Part shown: positions 45,123 to 54,074 of the stretch, in pieces
How positions within the stretch are numbered: position 1 is the first letter of the stretch
Layout: the number at the start of each line of letters is the position of its first letter
Origin: Bacteroidales bacterium
Lineage (GTDB): Bacteria > Bacteroidota > Bacteroidia > Bacteroidales > UBA932
Assembly: GCA_017634595.1 (NCBI GenBank)
Contig: JAGBNC010000006.1
Location: forward strand, 1 to 64,000
Length of the DNA: 64,000 bases
Direction of reading: 5' to 3'
Notes under the pieces: model-generated
Told to the model about the DNA's origin: nothing
The model's database searches: none
Seen by the model: only the letters and a program-made list of their open reading frames with translations
Program-made: the position numbers and the translations under genes

Positions 45123-45196
45123 CGGGATGTAGCGCAGTTGGCTAGCGCACCACGTTCGGGACGTGGGGGTCGTCCGTTCGAGTCGGATCATCCCGA
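45123..45196 (+). tRNA. tRNA-Pro(CGG), probable phage integration site
   Basis: A 74-nt cloverleaf. The acceptor arm pairs CGGGATG with CATCCCG; the anticodon loop TTCGGGA carries CGG; the T-loop is TTCGAGT. Discriminator A. A tyrosine recombinase gene begins 127 bp downstream in the same orientation, so the tRNA 3' end is the likely attachment site (one of the two att sites). The other copy is outside the window. Confidence 0.9.
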
Positions 45197-45202
45197 CAGA
45201 TT

Positions 45203-45242
45203 TCCGGTAACTCGTTGAAAAACTTCGAATTACCGGATTTTT
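45203..45242 (+). terminator. Terminator after tRNA-Pro
   Basis: TCCGGTAACTCG (45203-45214) pairs with CGAATTACCGGA (45226-45237) with one mismatch, followed by TTTTT. An in-frame TTG at 45215 inside this hairpin is therefore unlikely to be the integrase start. Confidence 0.75.
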
Positions 45243-45322
45243 CATACACAAAGCGGGACAGTACCGCGACAACTTTTTCTTCTTTGTATGACACCCTGCG
45301 GGAGTTGTGCAAAGAAAAAAAA

Positions 45323-46471
45323 ATGATTTTTACTCCAGCTCCGTTTTTTGATTATTCACCCCCGAAGTTGACCGAAGGGAAAATCTGGTACATCTCTTAT
45401 TACGTCCGTGACCCGGCATCGGGCAAAATGAAGCGGTTCCGCATCAAGGTCAACCGGATACAGAACAAGTTACAGCGCCGCAAGTTGGCGAAGCAGATTA
45501 TGTCGGCCCTTGAGAATAGATTGTCCCTCGGATGGAGCCCGTTTCTTGATTCCGTTGCAGCAAAATCGTCCGATCGTCTCTCCGATGCATTGGACGCATT
45601 CCTGAAGGCTAAGCGAAAAGAAATGGAGTTGCAGTCATTCAGGAGTTATCAATCATTCCTTCGCATCTTCAGTCAATGGGTTGAAGAGCGGAAAATTCAT
45701 CTCGTCTGCTCATTCACCAAAGCGCACGCACGGGAATACCTTGATTATATTGACGAAAGGGAGGGGGTATCAGCCCGTACATACAACAACTATCTTTCTT
45801 TCCAAAACGCGCTGTGGGAATGGCTCAAAGAGAAAGGGTACGCGGCTGAGAATGTTTTTCGGGACTTCAAGAAAAAGCCAAAGCGGCTCATGCAGAAAAA
45901 GCGGAGGTTATTTTCGCCGGAAGAACTGTCGGCGCTGTTCAGCTTTCTCCGCCAAGACAATCCGGAGTACCTCGCGGCGGTCGTGCTTTGCTTATGTTGT
46001 TTCATCAGGCCCAAAGAGATAGCCCTGTTGAAGTGCTCAGACTTGAATTTAGACAACCAAGTCGTGCATATTCGCCCAGAGATCGCCAAGAACGACAAAG
46101 AGTCATGGAGAACTATTCCCGATGAAGCGCTGCCGATTTTAGGCCGGCTCGAACTATCGCGGCCGGAGTTTTATGTCTTCGGGAAGAATCGCGGCAAGCT
46201 TCGTGATTTCAGGCCCGCTGCGAATCCATGCTCTGAAAAGAAATTCGCGGATTACTGGGATACTGTGGTAAGGCCCGCCTGCAAATTCGGTAAGGACCTG
46301 CAGTTCTACTCCCTCAAAGATACCGGAATTACGAACGCGCTTGAAGTAGGAGTCCCCATCAACCAGGTACAGCAGCAGGCGGACCATTCAAGCGTAGCCA
46401 TGACTGCCATTTATGTCGGGCATAAGGCAAAGGCGAGCGATGAGCTGCGCAGGATTCATATAGAAAAATAA
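45323..46471 (+). CDS. int: Phage tyrosine recombinase (integrase)
   Basis: A 382-residue integrase. An SAM-like core-binding domain (about 80-180) precedes the catalytic domain. Catalytic residues fit Arg229 (CFIRPKEIALL), His355 (ADHSS) and nucleophile Tyr364 (TAIYVGH). The usual HxxR of box II is replaced by YSLKDTGIT, leaving Lys332 where Arg is common; similar variants occur in Bacteroidetes phages. The ATG at 45323 is chosen because the upstream extension would start in a terminator; an A-rich AAAGAAAA leader precedes it. It catalyses recombination at tRNA-Pro. Confidence 0.88.
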   Translation: MIFTPAPFFDYSPPKLTEGKIWYISYYVRDPASGKMKRFRIKVNRIQNKLQRRKLAKQIMSALENRLSLGWSPFLDSVAAKSSDRLSDALDAFLKAKRKEMELQSFRSYQSFLRIFSQWVEERKIHLVCSFTKAHAREYLDYIDEREGVSARTYNNYLSFQNALWEWLKEKGYAAENVFRDFKKKPKRLMQKKRRLFSPEELSALFSFLRQDNPEYLAAVVLCLCCFIRPKEIALLKCSDLNLDNQVVHIRPEIAKNDKESWRTIPDEALPILGRLELSRPEFYVFGKNRGKLRDFRPAANPCSEKKFADYWDTVVRPACKFGKDLQFYSLKDTGITNALEVGVPINQVQQQADHSSVAMTAIYVGHKAKASDELRRIHIEK

Positions 46472-48047: not shown

Positions 48048-48288
48048 AGCCGGGTTCTTTTTCAGCTTCTTCAGCAGCGAGGACGGCCATAAGCCGGGAC
48101 TCTACTATTTCAAGGTCGTTGATCAGAGAGTTGGCGAAGTCCCTTTCGGCAGCTTCCTGAGGATACTTGTTGCGGAATACCAGCCCGTCCTTTTCGCATT
48201 TAAGGGCGGCGCTGTCGGATTTTCGACGGATGAAATCGAGGTCAGAGATTCGTTTCTGGACCTTGTTAAGTTGTTCTTGTGTTGTCAT
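48031..48288 (-). CDS. Small coiled-coil phage protein
   Basis: An 85-residue, highly charged helical protein (MTTQEQLNKVQKRISDLDFIRRK and DFANSLINDLEIVESRLMAVLAAEEAEKE in parts). It starts at an ATGA overlap with the end of the reverse transcriptase gene and overlaps the next membrane protein, so it is co-translated with the DGR. Unknown function; an accessory of the lysis group or the retroelement are both conceivable. Confidence 0.6.
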   Translation of the reverse strand: MTTQEQLNKVQKRISDLDFIRRKSDSAALKCEKDGLVFRNKYPQEAAERDFANSLINDLEIVESRLMAVLAAEEAEKEPGYDSEA

Positions 48289-49550
48289 GACGGTATTTGT
48301 TGGTTGATATATCTTCTGAGTTCACGGTTGTGGCGCCGATAATATTCTTTCCGCGTGTAGGCCTTGCGGATTGCGCAGGCCGTATTGTCCGGCTTCAGGC
48401 GTATCATGTCATTCCATGGACCGTGCTGGATGCGGGCTGCTATTTCGGCGCGAAGATCTTCACTCTGGCAGTGGCGGAATATTCCAAGGTATGAGTTTAC
48501 GCAGTCCCGAAAGTGCTCCTTATTCCAGAGCCTCCATCTCTTAGATTTCCCTCTGAATTCATAGTAGCTAAGTTTGCTGGAGAAGTTTCTGATGATGCGC
48601 CGGTCCGGGACAAGGATAATCTCGCTGCCTTTGGTCTTAAGGAAGTATCCGAACATCTTTATGCCATAATACGACGGCTGGCAGTAGAACTTGCCTTCGT
48701 TCATCTCCATGTTGTGCCTGCTTTCTTCCCGGCGAAGGGTAGGCATGACGATACGTAGGAACTGTTGTAGTCGGTCGTGCCGGATAACCGTACGGATATC
48801 ATCGGAATAATGGACGAACCGCGTAAATCCATAGTATCTAAGAATGTTCAAGTATAAGGTTGATACGATATTGCCGGCCATCTGTGAAGGCAGGTTCCCG
48901 ATTGCTACTCCCTGCCACCACGGCAGCTTCTCCATGCGCTTGTAGTCAGGAAGGTCTGCTGCTTCACTGACGGGGCAGATTCGATTGAGGTGTTCAGCCG
49001 GGCAAGACAGATAGAGAATATTCCCAAGCCATATCAGGAAATCGGCCATTTGTGGCTCGAAGTTATCCCTGATTATGGGCTCATAGAGTTTCATAAGCAT
49101 CCTACGATCGAGGTGCAGGAAGAATGACTTCTGGTCAATGGATATGAAGTCGCACGGCACTGTGCCACCTTCGCTTTCCTCTAAGTAGTATTCTATGAAT
49201 TGATCGACGGCCCGGAGTGCTCCGCGTCCGACTCTGCAGGAATAGCTGTTCGGGTCGAGGTGTTTTTCCACATAGGGCCTTACCGTCTCGCACCAGAGCG
49301 TTTGTGGTGTGCGGTCATCGGCATCCGGGGCTATTACTTCGCGCAGCTTCGGATAAAATATCGGGAACCAGGTGTAGTCGGAAGGGATGTAATATCGGCC
49401 GTTGAGTCTCAAACACATTTCCCTTAAATGACGTGGCCCTTGCCTGTTGTACTCCACCATGGAGCACTTGCGTCGTTTGCGGGCTATGGTCTTGCGAAAC
49501 CATCGGTAAATAATGGGAAGCGGTATCAGGGCGCGCATGAACACATCCAT
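48285..49550 (-). CDS. DGR reverse transcriptase
   Basis: About 421 residues from ATG 49550 (MDVFMRAL), preceded by GGAGG; ATG 49538 is an alternative. Core motifs: DFISIDQKSFFLHLD (catalytic Asp139), the DGR signature IGNLPSQ (217-223) in place of the retroviral or group II form, and the catalytic YSDD (248-251). The C-terminal thumb is basic with RHNRELRRYI. In DGRs this error-prone enzyme copies the template RNA, misreading adenines. Upstream the same frame is open through the template repeat to an ATG at 49679, so a longer form cannot be excluded. The stop overlaps the next gene (ATGA). Confidence 0.93.
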   Translation of the reverse strand: MDVFMRALIPLPIIYRWFRKTIARKRRKCSMVEYNRQGPRHLREMCLRLNGRYYIPSDYTWFPIFYPKLREVIAPDADDRTPQTLWCETVRPYVEKHLDPNSYSCRVGRGALRAVDQFIEYYLEESEGGTVPCDFISIDQKSFFLHLDRRMLMKLYEPIIRDNFEPQMADFLIWLGNILYLSCPAEHLNRICPVSEAADLPDYKRMEKLPWWQGVAIGNLPSQMAGNIVSTLYLNILRYYGFTRFVHYSDDIRTVIRHDRLQQFLRIVMPTLRREESRHNMEMNEGKFYCQPSYYGIKMFGYFLKTKGSEIILVPDRRIIRNFSSKLSYYEFRGKSKRWRLWNKEHFRDCVNSYLGIFRHCQSEDLRAEIAARIQHGPWNDMIRLKPDNTACAIRKAYTRKEYYRRHNRELRRYINQQIPS

Positions 49551-49562
49551 CACCTCCGAGGC

Positions 49563-49676
49563 AGAAGCGCGGAACAGCCGGGCGGCATACGCATTGATGC
49601 GGTTGTTGCCGTTGTTCAGGTTGCCATTCGTCCCGTTGAAGATCCAGGCATTGTTGCTGTTCGACTGGAAGGCAAG
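49563..49676 (-). repeat. DGR template repeat (TR)
   Basis: A 114-bp repeat located between avd and the reverse transcriptase, 628 bp from and parallel to the variable repeat. It contains 28 coding-strand adenines, many in AAC/AAT codons (Asn). It differs from the variable repeat at 10 positions (49595, 49598, 49607, 49627, 49628, 49637, 49651, 49652, 49654, 49660), all adenines here. The invariant 3' 30 nt is GC-rich, as expected of an initiation site for mutagenic homing. Confidence 0.95.
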
Positions 49677-49678
49677 CA

Positions 49679-50161
49679 TTACAGGCCCGTTTTTACCGTA
49701 AATGACGGCAGGGCCCCTTCTTCATCGGATTTCTCTCTGTCAACGCTATTGGTTGACAGACTCTGACCCGCTATTTCTTTGCAGTGGCGCGAGTTTAGAA
49801 GTGTATGAACCTGCTCTGATACCTTATCCCATAAATAATCCAGCTGCGCTTTATCCGCATCGCTTATGGCGATTAGAGAATTAGCCACTTCCAGGCAATA
49901 AAGTAGCCGATAAAGCGCATTGTCCGCTTCCCGGAAACAATCTCCTTTTTCCTTCCCGGGAAGCGTGCGTACACCCCTTTCAATCCAAGCGCCGGCATCA
50001 ACGGCCGCTGTCATTATGCGGTCGCCCAAGGTAAACTTATACTTGTTTTTCCTGAGGTTTTCGACCCTGAACGCCACTGCTTCGCCCAAGGCTCTCGCAT
50101 CAATTTCAACCGGCAGGAGGTCCGCCGGTCTATGTGCCGCACGCTTGTATCTTGAGGCCAT
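49679..50161 (-). CDS. avd: DGR accessory variability determinant (Avd)
   Basis: A 160-residue, mostly helical basic protein placed between the target gene and the template repeat, as Avd proteins are. The helices (LGEAVAFRVENLRKNKYKFT, GDRIMTAAVDAGAWIERGVR, READNALYRLLYCLEVANSL, LDYLWDKVSEQVHTLLNSR) fit the four-helix barrel of Avd, which forms a ring that binds the reverse transcriptase and the RNA. The C-terminal 30 residues are a hydrophilic tail. It starts 12 bp after the target stop without a strong ribosome-binding site, and ends in TAATG, shared with the frame through the template repeat. Confidence 0.85.
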   Translation of the reverse strand: MASRYKRAAHRPADLLPVEIDARALGEAVAFRVENLRKNKYKFTLGDRIMTAAVDAGAWIERGVRTLPGKEKGDCFREADNALYRLLYCLEVANSLIAISDADKAQLDYLWDKVSEQVHTLLNSRHCKEIAGQSLSTNSVDREKSDEEGALPSFTVKTGL

Positions 50162-50172
50162 AAAAAGAAAAA

Positions 50173-51513
50173 TTAAAATTCGTTGAATTTAGAAGCGCGG
50201 AACAGCCGGGCGGCATACGCATAGAAGCGGTTGTAGCCGTTGTTCAGGTTGCCAGGCGTCCCGTAGAAGATCCAGGCACAGCTGCTGCTCGACTGGAAGG
50301 CAAGGCGTGTTGTAGTATTGTAGCCTACAGCCGTGCCGCCGGCCGCAACGATGGTCTTGTTGATTGGGTCGAGCTTGCTCTTGAGGATTTGAGTGTAGAG
50401 AAGATACGCTTCGGCCGATCCTCCAAGGTGGGCGGTTCCCGGCTCAAAGCCGGTCTCATAGCCATCAAGGTTCTTTCCCTTTGTGAGGGCTGTATGAAGT
50501 TCCGGGAAATCGTAAGATACTGCACCAAGGTAGTTCTCATGGGAAAGGCTGCCAAGCTTCAACGTTTCTTCATCGCCGAACCAGAACCTTGAGTCCCCGA
50601 GGAATCCCCTTGCGCAAGGGTAATCCGCCTTCAGCAGATTAAATCGTGCCGCAACATAAGCGTTGTAATCACCGTTGAACATCCCGTAAAGCTCCTGATT
50701 GTCCGTCTCGTTGAAGCGGGCCTTTTTCACGGTGTCATTCGTGAGGGCCTGGTTGGTCGCATCTGTGCCACTATTAGTGACATATTCTCGATATATTTCC
50801 GGCTGTACATATCCTGTTCCGGCAAGAGCGCCGTGCCTAAGAATCTGCGTTGTATGGACATCTCCATAGTACTGCGTCTGATATCCTCGGTGGGTCCGCG
50901 TCGCAGTAATACTGCCATTGACTACGGTGATACCCATATTTGCGCTATATCCTCTGATGACACAGCCGATGGAGCTGTCGGACACCTTTGTAGCATTTTT
51001 GATGTAGGACGTGTCGACGGCCGCCACCTGTGCGGCAACTACGGAGATATCATCCCCCGCTTGCCAAGACAGGGTAACGGTCTTGACGTATGAGCCGGCC
51101 GCTGAATAATACTTAAACGTCACTTCGGCGCTGCCGGCTGCTGACGTGTCGAATCCCTCGAGGAGCCACTCATCTCCGGCCGCATATTCCTCAGCAGGCA
51201 GCTGAGCGTTGAGCACCCTTACATGACGGCCGCAAATACTACCGATGTAGGTTTCCTCCCCGTCGAAGTAGCGGTCGGTATCCATGAGGCTCTTCACGAG
51301 CGTTCCACGGCGCACCAGGACGCGGCGGTTCTTCAGCCTGTCGAACCATACAGCATCTCCAGGGAGCGGGTTGCGTGTATCAGTAATTACGTTCACTCCG
51401 TCGAACTGCCCCCGGGTCCCGATGAGGGACACGGAGGACTGGTCGGCTGGACGGTTTGCGGCGTCAGCAAGGTAAATCTGCTGGTCAGCGTATTTCTTGA
51501 TGTAGAATGACAT
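50173..51513 (-). CDS. DGR target protein, variable C-terminal ligand-binding domain
   Basis: A 446-residue phage protein whose codons 404-441 are the variable repeat, ending six residues before the C-terminus. The last ~150 residues (DSRFWFGDEETLKLG, LGGSAEAYLLYTQILK, AWIFYGTPGNLNN, AYAARLFRAS) resemble the C-type-lectin-like fold of DGR targets, where scaffold residues are kept and surface ones vary. Residues 1-250 appear beta-rich and probably attach it to the tail. Compared with the template, eight residues have changed (mostly from Asn: Ser, Ser, Cys, Tyr, Pro, Tyr, Tyr; and Ile to Phe). Likely a receptor-binding tip. It follows a BppU-like fibre gene by 11 bp. Confidence 0.9.
   Translation of the reverse strand: MSFYIKKYADQQIYLADAANRPADQSSVSLIGTRGQFDGVNVITDTRNPLPGDAVWFDRLKNRRVLVRRGTLVKSLMDTDRYFDGEETYIGSICGRHVRVLNAQLPAEEYAAGDEWLLEGFDTSAAGSAEVTFKYYSAAGSYVKTVTLSWQAGDDISVVAAQVAAVDTSYIKNATKVSDSSIGCVIRGYSANMGITVVNGSITATRTHRGYQTQYYGDVHTTQILRHGALAGTGYVQPEIYREYVTNSGTDATNQALTNDTVKKARFNETDNQELYGMFNGDYNAYVAARFNLLKADYPCARGFLGDSRFWFGDEETLKLGSLSHENYLGAVSYDFPELHTALTKGKNLDGYETGFEPGTAHLGGSAEAYLLYTQILKSKLDPINKTIVAAGGTAVGYNTTTRLAFQSSSSCAWIFYGTPGNLNNGYNRFYAYAARLFRASKFNEF
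50191..50304 (-). repeat. DGR variable repeat (VR)
   Basis: A 114-bp copy of the template repeat at the 3' end of the target gene. The 10 substitutions relative to the template (5 to T, 3 to G, 2 to C on the coding strand) all fall on template adenines. The 5' 16 nt and the 3' 30 nt are unchanged. Confidence 0.95.
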
Positions 51514-51524
51514 GATGAAGTATA

Positions 51525-54074
51525 TTAAGAGTTGGTATCAAGTTTCCAGTCAGCAACGGTGAATCCAACGGCCGTGCGGAATACTTTGTTGACGCTGTCA
51601 AAGATGCGCTGCCCTATCTTGGCGGCGATGAAGTCAGGTGCTCCGGCGGCCTGGAGGTTTGCGTTACCCTCGGTGGAGTAGTCATCGAGCTTGTGCCGTA
51701 TCGTCAGGTCATCGACAATGATATTCTCGAAACCGCTTATTATTTTCTCCTCGATGGCGGATATGCGTGCGTTCAATTCTGCTAGAAGCCCTGCCAGGGC
51801 GGAATAGGTGCCGTCAAGGTCGCCGGCGATAAGCGCGCGGAGGCTGTCGGGAATTCCACGGGCATAGCTTATAGTGACGTAAGCTGAACCTGTAACATCA
51901 TCCAGCGTTATGACGCTGAAATCTTCAACGGCAAGTGTCGTGGCGAGGTTGACCGTGCCGGTGGCCACCGTGGCCAGCTCGAACTTCACGTGGTCGGAAG
52001 AAGCTTCTGCGTTCTCGTCGGTATAACTGACTGAAGTGCCGGAGACGGAGAGCCGGGATCCGGAAGAGAAGAATTCGGCTGCTCCGTCCGGAGCCATGGC
52101 CGCGATGGTGGCAGTATGGGTGTAAGTCCCCTCTTCGTTCTGGACGGTAGTCCATGCAGGGAGCGCCATATCCACCTTCCTGGTCCATCTTACTTGCGTG
52201 GCACTGATACGGGCGAAGCTGTCGGCGACGTTTCCGGCTGCGAGCATGATGCCGGTGCTGTGGATGGCACTCAAGACGGCGGAAAGGCTGAGCGCGGATC
52301 CCGCGTCGGAGGGGTCGTCGATTGCGATGTAATCGTCATAACGTCCAGACCATCCGACGTGGGCGCATACGGAGGCGCGGGTGATGCCTGAAACAATCAT
52401 ATATCCAGCCTGCGACGTAGTGAAGAAGCGGTACCCTTCTGCATCGGTATAAGCGCATGCGCTGCCATCGTTAATGCTTGTGGGCACTCCGCTGCTGAGC
52501 GGCTTGAAGCGCACACTGGGCTTAAGGTTTTTGCGGGTTGAATCGGTGAACAGCACTCCGTTGGGAGCGAGCGCTGTGCGGAATACTCCAAACGGAAGGG
52601 CAGGAACCTTGAAGTACCAGCCCGTTCCTATGGCCACGGCGCGGCGAAGGAGGTTGAATCCGTGCGATACCAGACGTGACGCTGAGAAGTCATGGCGGGC
52701 AACTACAGAGACGAGCTGAGCATCAACTCCGGAGTCGATGGATACATTTCCTCCGGTGGTATATACTTCGTCGGTCTGTGTATCCGGCGCATCGGATGCG
52801 CGGCCCTTCCAGGAATCCAGGCTGCCGGCAAAGGCGGGAACGAGATTGCCGCTTTCAAGGTCACTCTTCTTTGCTACATCCCCGGACTCGATGCCCGAGT
52901 CGATGGGATTGCCGTTCGCGTCAAGTTCGGCAATGTGACCTTCTGTTGGATTGAGGGCCTTGCGGGCAAGCTGGCTGATATCCTGATGTTGCTGCAAGGC
53001 GGAGTTTGCTTTCACAAGGGCTGAACGTACAGATTCATCGAGGTCCGTTGCCGGGATTCCGCTGTTCGGTTTCGTGTATTTTGCGGCAATGGCATCGTTG
53101 ATGCCGCCCACAATTCCGGAGAGGGTCTCCGTGTTAGTGATGTTCGCAAGGAATGCCACGATTTCGTTAAACTTGTCGATGGCCGCGGTTGGGTTGTCAC
53201 CTTCGCTGATAACGGATTCCAGGGCGGCCACTTTTCTGTTGAGTTCTCCCAGGTCTTTCGGTTGGAGGGCGGTACCGGCGGCAGCCAGTGCATCTTGTGC
53301 TGCTTTTGCCAGATCTGAAGACGGGATGCCGGAGGCGGGTTTTGCGTATTTCCCGCTCCATGCCTCTTTCTGCGTGTCGGTAACAAGCCGGTGCGTGGTA
53401 TCTTCTGAGAGTTCCGAAAGGGCGGTAGGAACGGCGATATTCACTTTTTTGTTAAGGTCGGGTGCGATGTCGGTGCCATTGCGCTGCACCCCCTCGATGA
53501 CGTTCACCTGGGAGCCTTCAGCGATGCCGGAGAGTTTTTCTTTCTCCACCTGTGTGAAGTCAGCTTCAGAGAGGCCTTTGCCTGCGACTTTATCTACTTT
53601 GCCGCCAAGCAGGTTGTCGGTCTGCTCTTTTGTGTAGAATGTCTCGCGCACCCATGCCTGCCGTGCAATGGTGACGGGGATGGCCTGGTCGGGATAGACT
53701 GCTATCATTGACAGTAGGTCAACGGTCTTGACAGCGATGGCATCGGACGGGACGTGGCGGTCGCGTACTTCGGCCCTGCTCCTCACAAGTCTGAAAGACT
53801 CGGCAGTGTCGATTTCGTACATATTATCCTTGCCGTCATTCTCGATGAGAAGAATGCGGAATACTCCAGGGACGTGCTGGTCTTTACCCTGCCAGGTAAA
53901 CGTGACTACGTTCGCGTTGATACTGGGAGTGATTTCAAGCCGGCGGGTACCGTTTTGCTCGAACACAACCGTGATGTCCTTCCCTGTCATGTCGTAGGGT
54001 TGGGTGGCTCCTCCCGGCAGCTTTTGCTGTATAGTCCAGGAGAAGTCATATGTGTTATGAATAGGCAGATCCAT
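51525..54074 (-). CDS. BppU-like baseplate/tail-fibre protein
   Basis: An 849-residue structural protein. The N-terminal ~105 residues (DFSWTIQQKLPGGATQPYDM, GKDITVVFEQNGTRRLEITP, VPGVFRILLIEND) look like the BppU N-terminal domain that docks fibres to baseplates. Then come repeated fibre units containing KPASGIPSSDLAKAAQDALA, KPNSGIPATDLDESVRSALV and related phrases, and a long beta-rich region. The C-terminus ends with a helix and IIVDDLTIRHKLDDYSTEGN. It is 11 bp upstream of the DGR target, so the two may assemble together. Function inferred from placement and N-terminus. Confidence 0.72.
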   Translation of the reverse strand: MDLPIHNTYDFSWTIQQKLPGGATQPYDMTGKDITVVFEQNGTRRLEITPSINANVVTFTWQGKDQHVPGVFRILLIENDGKDNMYEIDTAESFRLVRSRAEVRDRHVPSDAIAVKTVDLLSMIAVYPDQAIPVTIARQAWVRETFYTKEQTDNLLGGKVDKVAGKGLSEADFTQVEKEKLSGIAEGSQVNVIEGVQRNGTDIAPDLNKKVNIAVPTALSELSEDTTHRLVTDTQKEAWSGKYAKPASGIPSSDLAKAAQDALAAAGTALQPKDLGELNRKVAALESVISEGDNPTAAIDKFNEIVAFLANITNTETLSGIVGGINDAIAAKYTKPNSGIPATDLDESVRSALVKANSALQQHQDISQLARKALNPTEGHIAELDANGNPIDSGIESGDVAKKSDLESGNLVPAFAGSLDSWKGRASDAPDTQTDEVYTTGGNVSIDSGVDAQLVSVVARHDFSASRLVSHGFNLLRRAVAIGTGWYFKVPALPFGVFRTALAPNGVLFTDSTRKNLKPSVRFKPLSSGVPTSINDGSACAYTDAEGYRFFTTSQAGYMIVSGITRASVCAHVGWSGRYDDYIAIDDPSDAGSALSLSAVLSAIHSTGIMLAAGNVADSFARISATQVRWTRKVDMALPAWTTVQNEEGTYTHTATIAAMAPDGAAEFFSSGSRLSVSGTSVSYTDENAEASSDHVKFELATVATGTVNLATTLAVEDFSVITLDDVTGSAYVTISYARGIPDSLRALIAGDLDGTYSALAGLLAELNARISAIEEKIISGFENIIVDDLTIRHKLDDYSTEGNANLQAAGAPDFIAAKIGQRIFDSVNKVFRTAVGFTVADWKLDTNS

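Follow-up and report, generated by a model that had tools for sequence, protein, structure and literature searches.

The first 64,000 nucleotides of contig JAGBNC010000006.1 (Bacteroidales bacterium, assembly GCA_017634595.1), the stretch that we analysed and refer to as the window, hold the cassette of a genuine diversity-generating retroelement (DGR) that belongs to a prophage of about 41 kb. The element reaches beyond the window, where a second variable repeat (VR) lies, and it is very likely a DGR with two targets in a temperate phage. In the mechanism that we propose, a reverse transcriptase (RT) and an Avd-like protein would copy RNA containing the template repeat (TR) and misread its adenines. 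The first target would be a 446-aa protein of the tail module and the second a 159-aa protein at the opposite end of the prophage. The TR forms the 5' part of the RT frame, and the template is probably the RT message itself; a single RNA would then have to serve both translation and reverse transcription, which would compete for it. Below, L and G numbers denote the loci and genomes compared, and C2 marks contig coordinates, some of which lie outside the window.

One template repeat and two variable repeats in a prophage

The TR and the first variable repeat (VR1) form a 114-nt direct repeat with 10 differences, all of which fall on TR adenines (28 A in 114 positions; hypergeometric P = 1.9e-7). 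An earlier, sequence-only reading of this DNA had claimed as much, and had also counted eight changed codons, mostly Asn in the template. We find the same eight, with Asn as the TR codon in seven and Ile in one. A search of the host genome with the TR uncovered a third copy, VR2, which is outside the window and inside the prophage, 33 kb away at its opposite end. All eight substitutions between VR2 and the TR are at TR adenines, and one codon is absent from VR2. In both targets the VR is C-terminal: VR1 spans codons 404-441 of 446, and VR2 sits at the end of a 159-aa open reading frame (ORF). Simple arithmetic places VR2 about 8 kb from the cassette in the circular form, across the joined att sites.

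The bounds of the prophage are set by two copies of an 18-bp tRNA-Pro repeat, one of which adjoins the integrase gene, and VR1 and VR2 both fall between them (Table 1). The integrase and the att-like repeat uphold the claim that an integrated phage carries a full DGR cassette. The cassette itself comprises three minus-strand ORFs, target 1 (446 aa), an avd-like gene (160 aa) and the RT (464 aa). This is the order first proposed, except that the TR, then placed between avd and RT, lies in frame inside the RT ORF.

The template repeat within the RT reading frame

The first ATG of the RT ORF and the stop of avd overlap (TAATG), and the ATG runs straight into the TR, which makes up codons 2-39 of the ORF as listed. 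The TR and one end of the RT ORF thus overlap, the arrangement of DiGReF structural group 3 (PMC3521204). The nearest relatives of the window RT form a clade of eight lineages (support 100/99) in a tree of 58 rows, from which 7 rows, mostly near-copies, had been omitted beforehand. In all eight lineages the RT ORF carries the TR in frame at its 5' end, with an ATG upstream of the TR. Among 61 loci with a resolved TR, near-copies included, the TR is in phase at 33 and out of phase at 28; outside the clade it is in phase at 27 of 55. The frame relation across the clade suggests that the RT message may double as template, and it calls into question the DiGReF view of separate RNAs for TR and RT (PMC3521204).

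An alternative, which we consider less likely than not, is that the open frame is an accident, that the RT starts after the TR and that a separate RNA serves as template. Ancestry accounts for the TR being open in the VR frame, and in-frame ATGs follow it at distances of 13 and 25 nt in the window, of 52-54 nt in L007, L094 and L097 of the clade, and of 7-25 nt in L057, L058 and L073, which lie outside the clade. Because an ATG follows the TR in L007, L094, L097 and the window, translation through the TR remains putative in these four. Against this view, the phase holds in 8/8 clade lineages, and in L095 and L096 none of the codons ATG, GTG and TTG occurs from the end of the TR to the conserved RT start, so that translation there must cross at least part of the TR. 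In L006 a GTG is the only such codon after the TR, and in L005 an ATG comes just six codons before the KR motif. Codon-position counts divide between the two views. The stretch after the TR evolves like coding DNA between L094 and L095 (12/4/16 differences at positions 1/2/3, 32 codons), whereas between L007 and L097 it has no clear codon pattern (15/10/15, 33 codons). The leader before the TR offers few differences at any codon position between L094 and L095 (5/3/2 in 15 codons), and between L007 and L097 the counts are 4/4/4 in 9 codons.

Remote second targets in related phages

A remote second VR is present in 12 phages or prophages, this one and 11 related ones, with 175 of 182 pooled substitutions on adenine; these counts take in the locally aligned part alone. 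Second VRs were sought with the window TR peptide, with each record's own TR or with second-target proteins. The individual counts among the relatives are 16/17 (L005), 17/19 (L006), 15/15 (L008), 14/15 (G446), 14/14 (G440), 17/17 (G424), 19/19 (G631), 14/14 (G646), 9/12 (G688), 15/15 (L095) and 17/17 (L097). Control pairings of a TR with a mismatched locus (n = 8) scored 22-58 and four true pairs 106-156; three further pairs matched the TR itself and were uninformative. Half of the second VRs (this phage, L005, L006, L008, L095 and L097) emerged from searches with a TR that took no account of place. Similarity to the second-target protein led to the other six, whose position was therefore partly preset by the search. 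Six of the eight lineages of the RT clade have a second VR. A search of 22 whole records with one TR peptide was insensitive, missing several records' own main VR; it also missed the second VRs of L095 and L097, which were recovered later. In G688 (L159) the second-target ORF stops within the VR and 3 of the 12 substitutions are off adenine. This second target may be broken, because its ORF stops there, and is possibly decaying.

The genes around the second VRs are mostly concerned with replication, recombination, DNA methylation or regulation, as far as Pfam names them. We picked a subset of 28 neighbours within about 5 kb of second VRs, and 19 matched a family: SSB, Sak and HTH_36 (L006), Lin1244_N (L005), RecT, AAA_23 and DUF2958 (L008), DnaG-type primase (G446, G424, G646), methylase (G440, G646, G688), SSB and YqaJ (G440), AAA_22 and HTH_19 (G631), VapE-like (G688) and AAA_33 (this phage). 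For L095 and L097, where ORFs were read by eye and without Pfam, we noted SSB- and RecT-like neighbours in the former and a RadC-like and a terminase-like ORF in the latter. In the prophage under study, VR2 has as neighbours the AAA_33 kinase-like gene, an endonuclease-like gene (phrog_16945) and an HTH-like ORF without a Pfam match, and the gene order suggests that the second target is in an early position.

Both targets could instead be virion proteins, the remote gene being a displaced second receptor-binding protein, which we regard as rather unlikely. In its favour, the last 75 columns of a second-target profile align with the C-terminal end of target 1 (hhalign probability 97.6), both targets of the Bacuni phages were likened to a fimbrial tip protein (Hedzet 2021, PMC8143477), and the L097 second target is near the terminase-like ORF. 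Yet the Pfam-named neighbours (SSB, RecT, Sak, DnaG-type primase, methylase, VapE-like) are not tail genes, and none of six second targets tested has a strongly hydrophobic N-terminus.

Our own reading of the two targets, which we offer tentatively, is that one mutation engine may serve two proteins at different stages: a tail tip acting at the cell surface and a small, early, intracellular hypervariable binder. The binder may meet varying host molecules, such as defence or replication proteins. The engine would be self-limiting, as the message for its enzyme would double as template. The recurrence of a remote second target in a dozen related phages, mostly amid genes for DNA replication, recombination and regulation, suggests that the infected cell is a further setting in which targeted hypermutation is put to use; these recurring targets provide a set of proteins with which intracellular hypermutation could be tested.

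A profile of the second target matched 30 of 300 genomes of the genus; these matches are unsorted, some being main targets, TRs or pieces of long ORFs. Ten of the 30 belong to the 23 genomes that have an RT match at 1e-10 and 20 do not, which argues against a strict link to DGRs. Where the RT match is absent, the three best second-target matches are L120, L121 and L122 (G555, G584 and G552), whose proteins are candidate orphan targets or candidate members of a more distant DGR. Relatives of the second target were found neither in viral contigs, searched with exact peptide patterns, nor in phages.

Possible activity of the element

Evidence for activity within the clade comes from members L007, L008 and L026, in which the TR is identical. 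Between L007 and L008, 17 of 109 VR positions vary, 16 of them at TR adenines, as against 1 of 2273 positions outside the VR. The other two pairs have 8 and 16 VR differences (8 and 15 at TR adenines) and 27 and 26 outside. From such sequence comparisons, the DGR looks active in a clade member. The sequence-only reading had proposed a VR that varies over a constant TR as a check, and these relatives display it.

Several observations weigh against the picture of an active two-target system whose RT message is its template. For the phage under study, variation has no backing from reads or sister strains. We found no second VR in the searched parts of the L094, L096 and L026 contigs (19, 28 and 27 kb). 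The window RT has the two alternative in-frame ATGs downstream of its TR, as described above. No hairpin above chance follows VR1. Finally, the window TR has GCT near its 3' end, like its VRs, whereas the other seven clade lineages have GAT or GAC in the TR and GCT or GTT in the VR. The window TR lacks the adenine that sets TR apart from VR in those lineages.

That the system has decayed in this prophage, its repeats recording past activity, is improbable: the one-codon gap in VR2, the 3' end common to TR and VRs without the GAT/GCT difference of relatives and the transposase-like ORFs beside the VR2 gene point that way, but the RT, the avd-like gene and both targets are all open, and every VR1 and VR2 substitution is on adenine, the pattern that recent homing, and not drift, would leave. 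The transposase-like ORFs, two in number and judged by eye, lie on the stretch from the VR2 gene to the end of the prophage; we take them to be IS3-like.

A hairpin that would mark the target site behind the VR gained no clear support, as it was not above chance at VR1 or in the other seven clade lineages. VR1 is followed by an AT-rich 6-bp stem (p = 0.06, z = -0.18) and VR2 by a 5-bp stem (p = 0.296). A longer, AT-rich fold directly after VR2 (contig C2, L004) has z = -3.1 and is followed by a GC-rich inverted repeat with a T run, terminator-like by eye.

Relation to known DGRs

The DGR of Bordetella phage BPP-1 has an RT, an Avd-type gene, a TR and a tail-module target whose 3' end carries the VR, with differences at adenines only. 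The element described here is like it in these respects, its avd-like gene being a putative Avd. Unlike BPP-1, it has a remote second target and a TR inside the RT frame, and no GC-rich hairpin of 7-10 bp was found after VR1. A GC-rich stem of that length after the VR has been described for phage DGRs (PMC3240598).

Each of the two distinguishing features has partial precedent, the TR position in DiGReF group 3 and the second target in Quimbyvirus and the Bacuni phages. Group 3 DGRs share the overlap of TR and RT ORF with the window, and the part of the source seen is silent on translation of the TR (PMC3521204). The Bacuni phages of Bacteroides uniformis have two targets, one beside the RT and one distant (Hedzet 2021, PMC8143477). 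In the Bacuni record MT635598, 16 of 18 substitutions at the distant VR are on adenine, and the distant target is near genes for a C5-methyltransferase and a DNA polymerase A. The near and distant targets and the adenine bias at the distant VR are thus as in this prophage, whereas the Bacuni RT is 25.5% identical to the window RT and its TR is in a small ORF of its own, the RT frame being open for just 3 nt upstream of the annotated start. In Quimbyvirus, the authors took the second target to be non-structural and tied it to phage-host conflict, the phage DGR targets known before then being structural genes (Benler 2021, PMC8008677). Quimbyvirus differs in that its RT is in three overlapping frames and its second target is among methyltransferase and nuclease genes. 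Two VRs are also reported for phages with tentaclins (PMC10743442) and for Faecalibacterium prophages (PMC11792537). Our search of the literature, the 2018 DGR survey aside, suggests that a remote second target joined to an in-frame TR has yet to be described.

Genes of the cassette and its surroundings

The window RT is DGR-like, as judged from its sequence. It contains IGNLPSQ and YSDD (as HYSDD), the two motifs first reported for it, and a four-member RT profile (A1) matches the solved chain 8ub7 'Reverse transcriptase' (E = 1.9e-21), which we take to be the BPP-1 DGR enzyme. Pfam RVT_1 gave no match to the window RT at E <= 10, and the match to the NCBIfam group II model is far under its cut-off. 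The nearest RTs in viral contigs are 46-47% identical to it. The active site reads HYTDD or HYSDD in 8/8 lineages of the nearest clade (alignment A3), whereas other RTs mostly have YVDD (27 of the 30 in which the pattern was found; 25 further RTs had no pattern match). A pattern match of MYPDD in L094 was false, alignment A3 giving HYTDD. The IGNLPSQ of the window corresponds to IGNLDAQ in L005 and IGNLIAQ in L006. The avd-like protein has a weak Pfam match of its own, under the cut-off (23S_rRNA_IVP, E = 0.0085). Two of eight aligned relatives matched bAvd PF22296 (best E = 8.3e-5), and a profile of the eight matches the solved chain 2gsc (E = 5.8e-5).

Target 1 probably belongs to the tail module, judging by its neighbours. 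The 849-aa protein directly upstream matched five PHROG families, two of which are named 'tail', and the tape-measure gene is further upstream. The sequence-only reading had called this neighbour a BppU-like fibre, which did not hold up, the protein having no Pfam match even at E <= 10. The C-type-lectin fold expected of the variable domain was not confirmed either, as sequence matches are weak throughout: HbP1 8q4e (E = 0.036 and 0.0021; the fold of HbP1 was not found in the literature searched) and Lcl_C for the second target (E = 0.13). Target 1 most likely serves host binding, and receptor switching through it is a reasonable inference. A single-sequence search with target 1 found no relatives in viral contigs, phages or, its own genome aside, 300 genomes of the genus. 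Relatives emerged once targets were drawn from the DGR loci of relatives, and the targets at other DGR loci include proteins related to target 1. The prophage also encodes a head protease.

Table 1. Features of the prophage and its DGR; positions are those of the window unless marked C2.
Feature	Position	Strand	Basis or remark
tRNA-Pro	45123-45197		
att-like 18-bp exact repeat at 3' end of tRNA-Pro	45183..45200	.	second copy C2:86281-86298, outside window
Tyrosine integrase	45215..46471	+	Pfam PF00589, E = 7.2e-15
DGR-like reverse transcriptase ORF, 464 aa	48285..49679	-	begins ATG then TR; phrog_1423 'Reverse transcriptase', E = 1.4e-35
Template repeat (TR), 114 nt	49563..49676	-	in frame inside RT ORF 5' end
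avd-like accessory gene, 160 aa	49679..50161	-	position and size fit
Target 1, 446 aa, probable tail-module protein	50173..51513	-	VR1 at C-terminus
Variable repeat 1 (VR1)	50191..50304	-	codons 404-441 of target 1
Probable tail protein, 849 aa, directly upstream of target 1	51525..54074	-	PHROG tail family, best E = 1.8e-12
Variable repeat 2 (VR2)	C2:82734-82836		end of 159-aa ORF
Two transposase-like ORFs	C2:83414-84729		judged by eye

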